Shown here: piece after piece, positions 38,701-44,172 of the stretch
Layout: every line of letters starts with the position of its first letter
How positions within the stretch are numbered: the stretch's first letter is position 1
NCBI GenBank assembly: GCA_021794595.1
Contig: JAJYQN010000096.1
Span: forward strand, 18,399-82,398
Direction: 5' to 3'
Origin: Pseudomonadota bacterium
GTDB taxonomy: Bacteria; Pseudomonadota; Gammaproteobacteria; Acidiferrobacterales; Acidiferrobacteraceae
DNA: 64,000 nt
Program-made: the position numbers and the translations under genes
Notes under the pieces: model-generated
What the model saw: only the letters and a program-made list of their open reading frames with translations
Told to the model about the DNA's origin: nothing
Database searches by the model: none

Positions 38701-39689
38701 TCGTCGTCCGTTATTGCGGTCGGGTCTTCCTGGAGGGGGACCTCATGGCCTACGAACGACTGTGGGCGGAAACCTCGTTCCAGATGCAGGTATTGCGCGA
38801 CGAGCCGCGGAGTGCGGCCGAGGCCTATGATGCCCTTTCCGACAAGAACGACCCGGGCCTGAACGCGCACCTCACTTTTACTCTGGATCAAGCCCTGGCG
38901 CCGCACCTGATGCTGAGTAAGCCGCGCGTCGCGATTCTGCGCGAGCAGGGCGTTAACGGGCACCGCGAAATGGCCGCGGCCTTTATGGCCGCAGGCTTTG
39001 AGGCGATCGATGTCACCATGAGCGATTTACTGGCCGGCCGCGAGGTGCTGTCCGGCTTTTCCGGATTTGCGGCTTGCGGCGGATTTTCCTTTGGGGACGT
39101 GTTGGGTGCCGGAGGCGGATGGGCTAAGTCGATTCTCTTTAACGAATCCTTGAGTGCGCAGTTTGCCGAGTTCTTCGCGCGCCCCGAGACCTTCGCTCTC
39201 GGCGTCTGTAATGGTTGTCAGATGATGTCTCACCTGCGCTCCCTGATTCCGGGCGCTGAGGCGTGGCCGATCTTTGGGCGCAATCGTTCCGAACAGTTCG
39301 AATCGCGGACGGTGCTGGTGGAAGTGGCCCCGAGCCCGTCGATTTTGTTCGCTGGCATGGCCGGGGCCCGCCTGCCGGTTCCGGTGGCTCATGGCGAAGG
39401 CCGAGTCATTCTCGATACTGCGGCCCGGACATCGTTGGCGCAGACCGGGCTTATCGCCTTGCGATATGTGGATCATTACGGTCGGCCTACGGAAATCTAT
39501 CCGCGCAATCCCAACGGATCGACCGGTGGAATCACGGGCCTTACGACGCCCGATGGCCGCTTCACTGCGCTTATGCCCCATCCGGAACGCGTGGTGCGCA
39601 CGGTTACGAATTCCTGGCACCCGCGCTCGTGGGGAGAGTATGGTCCGTGGTTTGAGATGTTTCGTAACGCCCGACGTTTCGTCGGCTAG
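35799..39689 (+). CDS. purL: phosphoribosylformylglycinamidine synthase
   Basis: 1296 aa; [29 protein letters not shown], glutaminase [12 protein letters not shown]. Confidence 0.97.
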
Positions 39690-40708
39690 GAACGCCGCGC
39701 AAACAAAGCGCCTATGAGCTGGTCTTTAGTGAGGCCGATGGCGGCGATATCGGGGAGATGGGTGCGCAGGGTCGAGGCTTGGAATGCGAGTCCGACCAGG
39801 CGGTCTAAGGTCGGCGCGCCTGCTGAGATCCCAGGACCTGAAAGGTTTATGGCGCTGATATGTCCCTCGCGAACGGTCACCGAGACCAAGATGGACCCGC
39901 CGGGACCCTTGAGTGCGCGCTGGCAAAGATAAAGGCCCTCGCGAACCTTAAAGAGTGCCGTGGGTTCGGTCTCGTCGGATAAGACGGTCTCTGGCGCACT
40001 GAGCTCGGTCGCGACTTCTCGGGCCTTGGCCAGGAGTCGCTGCGGGGTGCGGGCCTCGCTTAAGCCCCCGACAAGGGGGGCGAAGGCCTGTGCGAGGCCG
40101 CGTTTTACGGCCTGAACGGAGGGGCGGTTCCCGGTTTCTTGCGTGATCGAGGTCAGGTGGTCGGTCAGGGCCGATTTCAATGGGGTACGCAAATCCTCGT
40201 TTGGCAGTTGCACAATCCGGTGCATGAGTTCGATGTCGAAGTCTATAAGTATGCTGCCCACGAAACAAAAGTAGCCGTTGATGTCGCCGGCCCCTTGGCC
40301 CGCTATTTTGCGTCCATCGCCTGTGACGATATCGTTTATGGGGCGAAGCGTCGCCCTGATCCCCAGGTCGCGGTAGACGCGGATCGGCGCCTTCGAGAGA
40401 TGTGCGTAGGCCTCGTCCACGCGGCTCGGGATCGGGACATGGGGCCGCTTTATGACCAGCGTGTAAAACACCTGACCCGGTCCGAGAAGGACCATGCCGC
40501 CCCCGGTTTCTCGACGCATCACGGGGATACTCTGTTTTTCGCAATAATCTCGATTCACGGTGGTGGGCGCGTCATCGAAAAATCCGAGGCTCACGAAGGG
40601 GCGCGCGGGCTCTATCAAGATAAGGCCTTCCTGCCCCAGGCGCGCGAGCGCGTGGAAGTAGGCGATAGGAAGGATGCCGCTATTGTCTGCGGGCTGAAGG
40701 AGTTGCAC
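39686..40708 (-). CDS. lipoate-protein ligase family protein
   Basis: [55 protein letters not shown] 40708 chosen as start because the longer ORF overlaps the divergent regulator. Confidence 0.88.
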
Positions 40709-40773
40709 GGCGCGGTCCTTGGCGTGTAGGGTCTCGGATATCCCTTTATTGTACAGGGGCGGGAGGATTTGCG

Positions 40774-41457
40774 ATGCATGAGGATCGGGAGGCCATTCAT
40801 AAGGCGCCGCTCTTTTCCGGCTTGTTCGCAGAAGAGCTGGACGGTTTGCTGATCCACGCGCGGACACGGCAAATCAAGCCGCACGAGGTCATCTTTGCCG
40901 AAGGGGATAAGGCCGGGGCCTTCTATTTTATCGCGATGGGCGCGGTACGCCTTTATCGCCTGTCGGCGCGCGGCGACGAGAAGGTAATCGAGATCCTCAT
41001 GGCCGGTTCGACCTTCGCCGAGGCTGTCGTGTTTTTGGGGGGCCGGTACCCGGTTTATGCCGCGGCGCTCTCCGAGACCCGGCTTGTCGAGATTCCGATT
41101 GGCGATTTTACCCGTACGCTCAAGGCCAACGGGGGCATGGCCCTGCGCATGTTGGCGGGCATCAGTATGCGTCTGCACCAACTGATTAACGATGTACAGT
41201 CTCTCACCTTGGAGACCGCTGGCCAGAGGGTGGCAGCCTATCTGTTGGAACAGTCACCGCCCGATGCCCAGTCTGCGGACGTCCACATGGTTATCCATAA
41301 GAACGTCATCGCCTCACGCCTGGGCGTGAAGGCCGAGACCTTTTCGCGGGTCTTGGCGACCCTGCGGGATTTGGGGTTGATCACAGTGTCCGGTAACGAT
41401 ATCCATATCGTGGATCGCCCCGGCCTTGAAAGGTGGCGCGCCAGCGTGGGGACTTGA
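40774..41457 (+). CDS. Crp/FNR superfamily regulator, DNR-like, cysteine-free
   Basis: cNMP-binding fold plus HTH IASRLGVKAETFSRVLATLRDLGLI with E-xx-SR recognition motif; no Cys in the protein. Confidence 0.92.
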   Translation: MHEDREAIHKAPLFSGLFAEELDGLLIHARTRQIKPHEVIFAEGDKAGAFYFIAMGAVRLYRLSARGDEKVIEILMAGSTFAEAVVFLGGRYPVYAAALSETRLVEIPIGDFTRTLKANGGMALRMLAGISMRLHQLINDVQSLTLETAGQRVAAYLLEQSPPDAQSADVHMVIHKNVIASRLGVKAETFSRVLATLRDLGLITVSGNDIHIVDRPGLERWRASVGT

Positions 41458-41467
41458 CCGGCGTCAA
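41454..41467. promoter_or_regulatory. FNR/DNR-type operator upstream of lipoate-binding protein gene
   Basis: TTGAC-CGGC-GTCAA. Confidence 0.65.
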
Positions 41468-41515
41468 GGCCGATCATTTTTAGGCAAGGGTAGACTCATT
41501 TTTAAGGAGTCCCTT

Positions 41516-41965
41516 ATGACCGAATACCGTGGATGCGAGTTACCAGAGGACCTCTTTTACGACCTTGATTACGTGTGGGCCCGGCCGGACGAGGACGGCC
41601 TTGTCGTTCTTGGTATCACGGATGCGGCCCAGACCATGGCCGGCCGAGTCCAAAAGATTCGCCTCAAAAAAGTCGGCACCCACTTGAATAAGGGGCGTCA
41701 CGTCGCAACCCTGGAAAGCGGGAAGTGGGCGGGCGGCGTGCCCTGCCCCTTCGAAGGTATTGTCGAGGCGGTCAACGACTCGGTGCTGGCGATGCCCCAC
41801 CTTGTCAATATCGGGCCTTATACCGACGCGTGGCTTGCCAAGGTACGGCCGCTCGAGCCGGCCACGGCCTTCGATGGCCTCACCACCGGGGCGGCGGCCA
41901 TGGCGGCGCTGCGGGCGTGGTTGGACCGCTATGATGTGCAGTGCATGCGCTGCGCTGAGCCGTAA
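41516..41965 (+). CDS. GcvH-like lipoate-binding protein (LbpA-type candidate)
   Basis: VVLGITDAAQTMAGRVQKIRLKKVGTHLNKGRHVATLESGKWAGGVPCPFEGIVEAVNDSV; ESGK places a Lys at the lipoylation position. Confidence 0.85.
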   Translation: MTEYRGCELPEDLFYDLDYVWARPDEDGLVVLGITDAAQTMAGRVQKIRLKKVGTHLNKGRHVATLESGKWAGGVPCPFEGIVEAVNDSVLAMPHLVNIGPYTDAWLAKVRPLEPATAFDGLTTGAAAMAALRAWLDRYDVQCMRCAEP

Positions 41966-41979
41966 ACGGTAAAAGTCGG

Positions 41980-42009
41980 GTCGTCTGTCTGGGCGCCGAT
42001 TCAGACGAC
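41980..42009. terminator. hairpin after lipoate-binding protein gene
   Basis: GTCGTCTG-14 nt-CAGACGAC. Confidence 0.4.
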
Positions 42010-42041
42010 GGTCGGCGTAGCCACGAGCTACAGGAGGCGGT

Positions 42042-42563
42042 GTGCAGATAAGGGAGTGGGGGACGCCTGGGGCTGGTCCGGGCTTTGATGATCCCTTAGG
42101 CTTACTCGCGGCCTGTCATGACCGCATTATGGCGCACTGCGCGACCCTCGTTCGTCTTGAGGGTCATGCGCGGGCTCGCGGATTCGACGCCGAGGCCTGT
42201 ACCGCGTCCGAACGGGTGATGCAATATTTTGCAAAGGCCGGGCGTTGGCACCATGAGGACGAGGAGCAGGATCTCGTGCCGCGGCTTAAAGTCCATGCCG
42301 ATGAGGCCCTGCTGTTGCTCCTTGTGAGGCTCATGGCCGAGCACCGCGCCCTGGAGGCGGCCTATGCGCCACTCCACAAGGCCTTGGTGGCAAGAGACCC
42401 CGAACTCAGAGTCGGGCCCTACGTAAGCCTCATGCGCGCCCACGTGGCGGCTGAGAATGCCGAGGTGTTACCGGTCGCGCGGGCCTTGCTCACCCCAGAG
42501 GAGATCGCGCAATTGGGGGCGGCTATGGCGAGGCGCCGGGGGGTCCGGCAAGGCGCGAGATGA
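42042..42563 (+). CDS. hemerythrin domain-containing protein
   Basis: ACHDRIMAHCATLVRLEGHA...RWHHEDEEQDLVPRL...LMAEHRALEAAY; His/Glu spacing of hemerythrin HHE domains. Confidence 0.85.
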   Translation: MQIREWGTPGAGPGFDDPLGLLAACHDRIMAHCATLVRLEGHARARGFDAEACTASERVMQYFAKAGRWHHEDEEQDLVPRLKVHADEALLLLLVRLMAEHRALEAAYAPLHKALVARDPELRVGPYVSLMRAHVAAENAEVLPVARALLTPEEIAQLGAAMARRRGVRQGAR

Positions 42564-42978
42564 CGTCTTCGGGACTGAGGATCAGGGGGCTTACCATGGG
42601 ATAGAGCTCGGTTTCCTCCTTTTCGTCGTGATGAATGAGGATCTGGGCGACCGTACCCATAAGCGCGGAGGCCTCGGCGGAGTCATGGTCGGCGATGGTT
42701 TCGCCGATCTCTTCAAAAAACCCCCGCAGGTCACGGTGGCCCTTGCGTAAGATCCCGGTGGTCGGGTTCTCCTGGCCGTAGCGAGCCTCATAGACCGGGA
42801 AAAGCCTTTCCTCTTCCGTTGTCATATGGATCTCTATGGCATCCCAAAACCTACGAAAGGCCCCCGGTGCCGTCTCCCAATCGGCCTTATCGACCGCCTG
42901 ATGGGCGGCGCTGAACGCCTCATCTAGAAATCGGTGATGCTCGGTAAAGCCCTCCAAAAGGGTGCGTGTTGTGCTCAT
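42523..42978 (-). CDS. hemerythrin domain-containing protein
   Basis: TEHHRFLDEAF...IEIHMTTEEERLFPVYE...GHRDLRGFFEE...LIHHDEKEETELYPM. Confidence 0.85.
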   Translation of the reverse strand: MSTTRTLLEGFTEHHRFLDEAFSAAHQAVDKADWETAPGAFRRFWDAIEIHMTTEEERLFPVYEARYGQENPTTGILRKGHRDLRGFFEEIGETIADHDSAEASALMGTVAQILIHHDEKEETELYPMVSPLILSPEDVISRLAGPPGASP

Positions 42979-43040
42979 CAGATACCCCTCCCGACGCAGG
43001 TCTGTTTGAGGCTATTGTCCCTAAGGGGCCGCCGTTATCC

Positions 43041-43054
43041 TTGACCGTAGTCAA
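43041..43054. promoter_or_regulatory. FNR/DNR-type operator in divergent intergenic region
   Basis: TTGAC-CGTA-GTCAA. Confidence 0.65.
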
Positions 43055-43113
43055 GGAGCAAGTCGCGCGCGGCGCCGTATCCTGGGACCGTCTCGGAAAC
43101 GAGGAGGGGGAAT

Positions 43114-43362
43114 ATGGAAGTCCGATTGCTGGTATCGAAGTGGTGTCCTGTGTGTCCGCAGGCCGAGGTGGTTTGGGCCGAAGTGGCTCGCCGCCGCTCT
43201 ATCGATTACGCGGTCCTCGATATCGCCGATCCCGTTGGACGCGCCCTTGTCGCCGGCCTGCGCATTCGCACCGTGCCGGCGATCGTGGTGGACGGGAAGC
43301 TGACCGCCGTCGGTGTGCAGTCGCTCGGGGATGCCCTGAAAATGGTCAGCGAGGCGGCTTAA
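43114..43362 (+). CDS. thioredoxin/glutaredoxin-like protein
   Basis: LVSKWCPVCPQAEVVWAE...IRTVPAIVVDGKL; CPVC redox motif and cis-Pro. Confidence 0.85.
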   Translation: MEVRLLVSKWCPVCPQAEVVWAEVARRRSIDYAVLDIADPVGRALVAGLRIRTVPAIVVDGKLTAVGVQSLGDALKMVSEAA

Positions 43363-43369
43363 GGTCGTC

Positions 43370-43717
43370 ATGGTCAGGGTCCGGCGGGTGTATGATCCAC
43401 CGGTCGTGGGCGAGGGCGTTTGGCTGCTGGTAGACAGAGTGTGGCCGCGGGGCCTGAGCCGGGCCCAAGCGGGATTGGCGGCCTGGTACAAGGAACTTGC
43501 GCCATCGACTGAGCTGAGGCGCTGGTTTGGGCGCGACCCCAAACGATTTAGTGAGTTTCGGTGCCGATATCAAGATGATCTGCGGGAGAAAGGTGACCTC
43601 ATGGAAGATCTCGCCGCTTGGGTACGTCACGGCGACGTTGTTCTAGTTTGTGCCCCTTCCGACGTGCAGCACAATAATGCCATCGTTCTTCGTGACGCTC
43701 TGCAAACGTGGCTTTAA
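43370..43717 (+). CDS. DUF488 family protein
   Basis: VWLLVDRVWPRGLSRAQAGLAAWYKELAPSTELRRWFG...DPKRFSEFRCRY. Confidence 0.88.
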   Translation: MVRVRRVYDPPVVGEGVWLLVDRVWPRGLSRAQAGLAAWYKELAPSTELRRWFGRDPKRFSEFRCRYQDDLREKGDLMEDLAAWVRHGDVVLVCAPSDVQHNNAIVLRDALQTWL

Positions 43718-44172
43718 AGGAAACGCTCTTCCTCGTCCTGCTGGCCATCCATCTCGTGGCTGCCGCGATCTGGGTGGGCGGTCTCCTATTTTTCATATTC
43801 GCGGTCGTGCCTGCCGCTCGGACGGCTCCGGATGCCGACATTCCGGCTCGCTTGGGGCGGGCGTTTCGCCCCGTGGCCTGGGTCGCCCTTGGGACATTAG
43901 TGGTCACTGGCCCTTTGCTCTTGTTTATCCAAGGGCTCGGGGCAGCTGTGCTGCGTCTTGGGTTTTGGCGCAGCCCCTTTGGCGTGACGTTGGGGGTCAA
44001 AGTGATCCTGGTAGTCACGGTCCTGGCGCTGACTTTGTGGCACGATATCGTTTTGGGACCACGCTCCCAGATGGTCTCTGATCCTGGCCCCTCGCGCCGC
44101 GTGGGCCGCGCCATAGGCCTTCTTTCTCTGGTCATTTTTCTAGCCGGTATGGCCCTGGCTCAGGGATTCTAG
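43708..44172 (+). CDS. CopD-like integral membrane protein
   Basis: LLAIHLVAAAIWVGGLLFFIFAVVPA with His in TM, four TM stretches. Confidence 0.65.
   Translation: MALKETLFLVLLAIHLVAAAIWVGGLLFFIFAVVPAARTAPDADIPARLGRAFRPVAWVALGTLVVTGPLLLFIQGLGAAVLRLGFWRSPFGVTLGVKVILVVTVLALTLWHDIVLGPRSQMVSDPGPSRRVGRAIGLLSLVIFLAGMALAQGF

Follow-up and report, generated by a model that had tools for sequence, protein, structure and literature searches.

The closest described counterparts of the locus analyzed here come from the control of nitric oxide (NO) responses and from sulfur oxidation. The cyanobacterial form of the regulator HcpR binds TTGACnnnnGTCAA before hcp and norB (PMC1274295, PMC12750200), and predicted NO regulons include these two genes together with COG4309 (PMC1274295). 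On the side of sulfur oxidation, the lipoate-binding proteins termed LbpA are recognized by a lipoyl lysine and by conserved cysteines at the N- and C-termini (PMC6067878). In this study both themes meet in a single stretch of 64 kb (hereafter the window), from a genome that is taken to be that of an Acidiferrobacter, an acid-loving sulfur bacterium of the order Acidiferrobacterales. The features of the locus are collected in Table 1.

Table 1. Genes, operators and promoter elements of the locus, with positions in the window.
Feature	Positions	Strand	Basis
LplA-like lipoate-protein ligase, divergent from the regulator	39686..40819	-	LplA-B_cat domain
DNR-type Crp/Fnr regulator, 227 aa, no Cys, E-xx-SR helix	40774..41457	+	cNMP_binding and HTH_Crp_2 domains (domain search); nearest solved structure, P. 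aeruginosa DNR; HTH alignment
Operator 1, TTGACCGGCGTCAA, predicted for lbpA3-HHE1	41454..41467	+	exact TTGAC-N4-GTCAA; 17/17 genomes
-10-like TAGACT, lbpA3 promoter, 23 nt past operator 1	41491..41496	+	A2/T6 hexamer in 16/17
lbpA3, LbpA-type, GcvH-like lipoate-binding protein with lipoyl site ESGKW and Cys at N- and C-terminus	41516..41965	+	GCV_H domain
Hemerythrin HHE1, probably on one transcript with lbpA3	42042..42563	+	Pfam Hemerythrin; gene order conserved
Hemerythrin HHE2, divergent from trx3	42523..42978	-	Pfam Hemerythrin
Operator 2, TTGACCGTAGTCAA, between HHE2 and trx3	43041..43054	+	exact TTGAC-N4-GTCAA; 16/17 genomes
-10-like TATCCT, trx3 promoter, 23 nt past operator 2	43078..43083	+	A2/T6 hexamer in 14/16
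trx3, small thioredoxin-like protein (CPVC)	43114..43362	+	Pfam Thioredoxin_3
DUF488 protein, 3' of trx3	43370..43717	+	Pfam DUF488; gene order
CopD-like membrane protein, 3' of the DUF488 gene	43708..44172	+	Pfam CopD; gene order

Two palindromes of the form TTGAC-N4-GTCAA had been singled out in an earlier note on this DNA, and the observation was confirmed: both are exact, they are the only zero-mismatch copies in the window, and the first overlaps the final four bases of the regulator gene. Across the 2.92 Mb draft genome there were six exact palindromes versus none for a reversed-pattern control, but that control overstates the enrichment, and a fairer one is a scan of spacings from N0 to N10, in which N4 gave 6, 2, 5 and 8 matches in four genomes where about two per genome are expected at other spacings, a modest excess. 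Part of the exact sites must consequently be due to chance, such as one within msbA, and given so modest an excess the counts alone are insufficient as proof of function. In the family loci that were fetched, the degenerate core occurred 104 times at N4 versus 0–4 times at each other spacing, these loci having been chosen largely by the motif itself. Matches within the coding sequence of msbA, nuoC and a ccmF-like gene, though exact, were not counted as operators.

Conservation provides strong evidence, as judged from alignments, that the two sites are real. Operator 1 was found as CTTGAY-N4-GTCAA in all 17 genomes of the family and operator 2 as TTGAY-N4-RTCAA in 16 of them, these genomes being kin and the counts therefore not independent. 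The family consensus of both, CTTGAY-N4-RTCAAG, occupies the same places as in the window. Over 17 species the information content per column is 1.90 and 1.78 bits in the arms of the operators, compared with 0.81 and 0.75 bits in the rest of the intergenic sequence. The gene order purL, ligase, regulator, lbpA3, HHE1, HHE2, trx3, DUF488, copD is kept in the 17 genomes with small losses. Spacing of 22–23 nt between operator and -10 element is that of class II FNR-type activation, and the geometry found here corresponds to it. Besides the lbpA3 and trx3 promoters, for which the suggestion of an operator centred at about -41.5 was borne out (Table 1), a hexamer with A at its second and T at its sixth position lies exactly 23 nt past the operator in 8/8 promoters of the NO reductase gene qNOR, whose product is a 772-residue COX1 and NorB cytochrome-c-like protein, and in 16/16 promoters of tusE. 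In other families of the order the offset is 22 nt, as seen for 7/7 denitrification, 7/8 trx3 and 4/4 NPD promoters. When 80 promoters were pooled, offsets 22 and 23 together gave 78 matches and the next best offset gave 12. On the HHE2 side of operator 2, the second genus has TACACT or TAGACT 23 nt away, and the first genus is less clear. The designation of both palindromes as FNR/DNR-type operators in class II position is thus supported.

The regulator encoded between the ligase gene and operator 1 resembles DNR rather than FNR, as had been argued from its recognition helix and lack of cysteines. Among solved Crp/Fnr structures its best relative is P. aeruginosa DNR (3dkw, E=1.1e-33), the next being at 2e-27. 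Orthologues at 58–96% identity are present in 16 relatives, and an alignment of 39 homologues shows hardly any variation at the E, S and R positions of the recognition helix. No N-terminal cysteine cluster of the FNR type or other Fe-S motif was found in the regulator, which has no cysteine at all, or in its orthologues, which have 0–2 scattered ones. The genome encodes only three other proteins with a cNMP domain: a CRP-like protein, one without an HTH, and a true FNR with an N-terminal cysteine cluster, located at G000:C52.

The regulon is larger than the small local one envisaged in the earlier note, a description that proved wrong, since its members include tusE elsewhere in the genome and NO-detoxification genes in sister species. 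The operator precedes tusE, which encodes a TusE/DsrC-like protein, in 16/16 genomes, that of the window included. In sister species it lies upstream of qNOR in all eight genomes having that gene, of hcp in 3/3 cases found and of the DUF2249 genes of one group in 11/11 cases found; we take DUF2249 to correspond to COG4309. In other families of the order, where the regulator is 41–46% identical, the operator precedes nirS, nosR, qnorB and narK. It also lies there between the divergent regulator and trx3 genes, and one family has lbpA3 in this divergent arrangement too. Because hcp, norB and COG4309 belong to predicted NO regulons, this list of targets in relatives makes NO the best guess for the signal, in agreement with the earlier proposal. 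No match to qNOR or Hcp was found in the genome of the window (92% completeness).

In those other families the operator also precedes dsrA and a dsrE gene, which suggests, from the sites themselves, that the regulator may also control genes of reverse dissimilatory sulfite reductase in order relatives. The form TTGACC-N2-GGTCAA was seen upstream of dsrA in three order relatives and of dsrE in one (L196:1501, L201:2490, L210:2540 and L203:2491). In two order relatives the same operator stands before genes adjoining a heme-copper oxidase cluster (L183:1501 and L208:2587); the oxidase there may serve as a terminal oxidase or, alternatively, as an NO reductase of an unusual kind. TTGAC-N4-GTCAA also occurs close upstream of nrdD, for the anaerobic ribonucleotide reductase, in three relatives (L060:3079, L105:3089 and L125:3079), and these sites could be read by FNR or by the DNR-type regulator. 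A last candidate lies next to hemN, which has a perfect FNR box, TTGATCCACATCAA (L009:3853, G000:C52). The gene after hemN is nitronate-monooxygenase-like with a Cys-rich C-terminus and has TTGAC-N4-GTCAA at L009:5419, and in order relatives the nitronate-monooxygenase-like gene retains, at class II spacing, a site of the DNR type. Membership of the hemN/nitronate-monooxygenase site (C52:59418) in the regulon is uncertain because FNR boxes adjoin it.

LbpA3 is a third lipoate-binding protein of its genome and shares about 40% identity with LbpA1 and LbpA2 from the sHdr cluster. Its alignment displays the GcvH-like character, lipoyl lysine and terminal cysteines expected of an LbpA; its gene lies outside an hdr cluster, the sHdr cluster with LbpA1 and LbpA2 being on another contig (L007). 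The LplA-like ligase encoded beside the regulator, which shares 30% identity over 179 aa with the sHdr-linked ligase, is a plausible partner of LbpA3 and stands outside the list of predicted regulon members. An exact palindrome between tusA and dsrE had raised control of the sHdr operon as a candidate. This was rejected, as the compensatory changes in its arms are best interpreted as those of an intercistronic RNA hairpin. The stem-loop (L007:3401-3420, G000:C132) lies directly between the stop codon of tusA and the ribosome-binding site of dsrE and is present in 16 family genomes. Its arms show the compensatory change TTGGC/GCCAA in G005, another stem takes its place in G007, the loop of G013 is 3 nt long, and G016 has a G.U pair; the spacers fold into small hairpins of -2.3 to -9.3 kcal/mol. 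In sequence the hairpin resembles a DNR operator.

A sister genus (G015) offers a natural experiment. It has no orthologue of the regulator (best match 34%) and retains FNR (53%). Its lbpA3 and trx3 have been kept (81% and 72% identity), with no operator upstream of either gene (best 7/10 and 6/10). That the operators are gone though FNR is present argues that the regulator, and not FNR, reads the sites, the argument resting on a single lineage whose genome retains the 34% homologue. The gene for that homologue adjoins hdrB-like and large oxidoreductase genes (L170:3067-9290), with FNR/DNR-like boxes at 2954 and 5729; it is possibly a rewired relative of the regulator.

With good confidence, we interpret both palindromes as sites of class II activation by the neighbouring regulator, which is of DNR type and probably responds to NO, a reading that draws on the operators, their spacing and conservation, the list of targets, and the absence of operators where the orthologue is absent. 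We infer that the regulator reads these sites, with NO as the signal and haem as the putative sensor, and that it activates transcription. In the proposed mechanism, NO, probably via bound haem, would activate the regulator dimer, which would bind CTTGAY-N4-RTCAAG centred about 41.5–42.5 bp upstream of start sites and recruit RNA polymerase to promoters whose -10 element is fair (TAgaCT, TAgagT). Within the window this would switch on lbpA3-HHE1, trx3-DUF488-copD and probably HHE2, and elsewhere in the genome tusE and possibly NPD/hemN. In this genome, in which neither qNOR nor Hcp was found, the regulon would supply spare lipoate and thiol sulfur carriers and NO-binding di-iron hemerythrins under NO.

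Some points speak against this explanation. The residue aligned to His187 of DNR, presumably one candidate haem ligand of that protein, is arginine in the regulator, and the FNR of the same genome shares the E-xx-SR helix and could bind TTGAY. It might accordingly be supposed that the sites are read by the O2-sensing FNR, which would make low O2, and not NO, the signal for the genes: each of the 18 family genomes encodes an FNR of the CxxC type with the E-xx-SR helix, and the consensus of the FNR box overlaps that of the DNR box (PMC1274295). We consider this unlikely, in view of the fact that the operators favour C at position 5, whereas hemN has a perfect FNR box, that they adjoin the regulator gene across the order, that the targets include NO-specific genes such as qNOR and hcp, and that the sister genus has FNR and yet no operators at lbpA3 and trx3.

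Another possibility is that a DNR-like Crp/Fnr reader senses a different signal, such as sulfane sulfur, redox state or CO, and governs a regulon of sulfur metabolism. The targets in the window's genome (LbpA3, Trx3 and TusE) would fit such a role, as would the operators at dsrA and a dsrE gene in the order, and no NO reductase was found in this genome, so that the response there may not concern NO. Operator and spacing are shared, however, by qNOR (8/8), hcp (3/3), nirS, nosR and narK, and the most direct link to sulfur, the tusA-dsrE palindrome, is an RNA hairpin, which leaves a different signal quite improbable in our judgment. As for palindromes arisen by chance, the expectation of about two exact copies per genome and the presence of some in conserved coding sequence, as in msbA, would allow for them, but position-specific conservation in 16–17 species and the fixed spacing to the -10 element already refute this idea, to which we attach practically no probability.

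With the sites read by the DNR-type regulator, an observation of two sites grows into a predicted NO regulon, spanning the order, in which NO defence or denitrification is tied to sulfur oxidation. The third lipoate-binding protein, for which there is otherwise no explanation, gains a testable condition of expression. We speculate, tentatively and with considerable doubt, that this NO regulator of the Acidiferrobacterales is wired to sulfur-carrier chemistry (LbpA3, TusE and Trx3, with dsrA and dsrE in order relatives) and that, in species without qNOR and Hcp, such as this one, the remaining lipoate and thiol carriers together with hemerythrins are themselves the NO response, serving NO handling or thiol repair via protein-bound lipoate. 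If this were true, nitric oxide would be a cue to which sulfur oxidisers adjust their lipoate and persulfide carriers. Such a link is absent from the literature searched; that search, incomplete in coverage, returned no paper in which a lipoate-binding protein of sulfur oxidisers is controlled by NO.

With one of the closest known systems, DNR of Pseudomonas and beta-proteobacteria and its denitrification regulon (PMC1274295), the locus shares the Crp/Fnr architecture, the E-xx-SR helix, the absence of Fe-S cysteines, an FNR-box-like operator with class II spacing and, in order relatives, targets of the nir/nor/nos type. It differs in that its operator is often TTGAC-N4-GTCAA, not TTGAT-N4-ATCAA, and in that the regulon includes LbpA3, TusE and Trx3 while neither an NO reductase nor Hcp was found in the genome of the window. 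HcpR is similar in its operator consensus, its hcp and norB targets, the haem/NO signal (predicted here) and the frequency of hemerythrin-like genes in its predicted regulons, whereas the window's regulator is nearest to DNR among solved structures. With the sHdr-linked LbpA proteins (PMC6067878), LbpA3 has in common the GcvH-like fold family, the N- and C-terminal cysteines and an adjoining LplA-like ligase; unlike them, it is a third copy outside the sHdr cluster and has a DNR-type operator. Finally, sHdrR and SoxR of Hyphomicrobium (PMC12423496) likewise link sulfur oxidation transcriptionally with genes of denitrification or nitrate respiration, but they are ArsR-family repressors whose signal is sulfane sulfur, and no Crp/Fnr regulator takes part.
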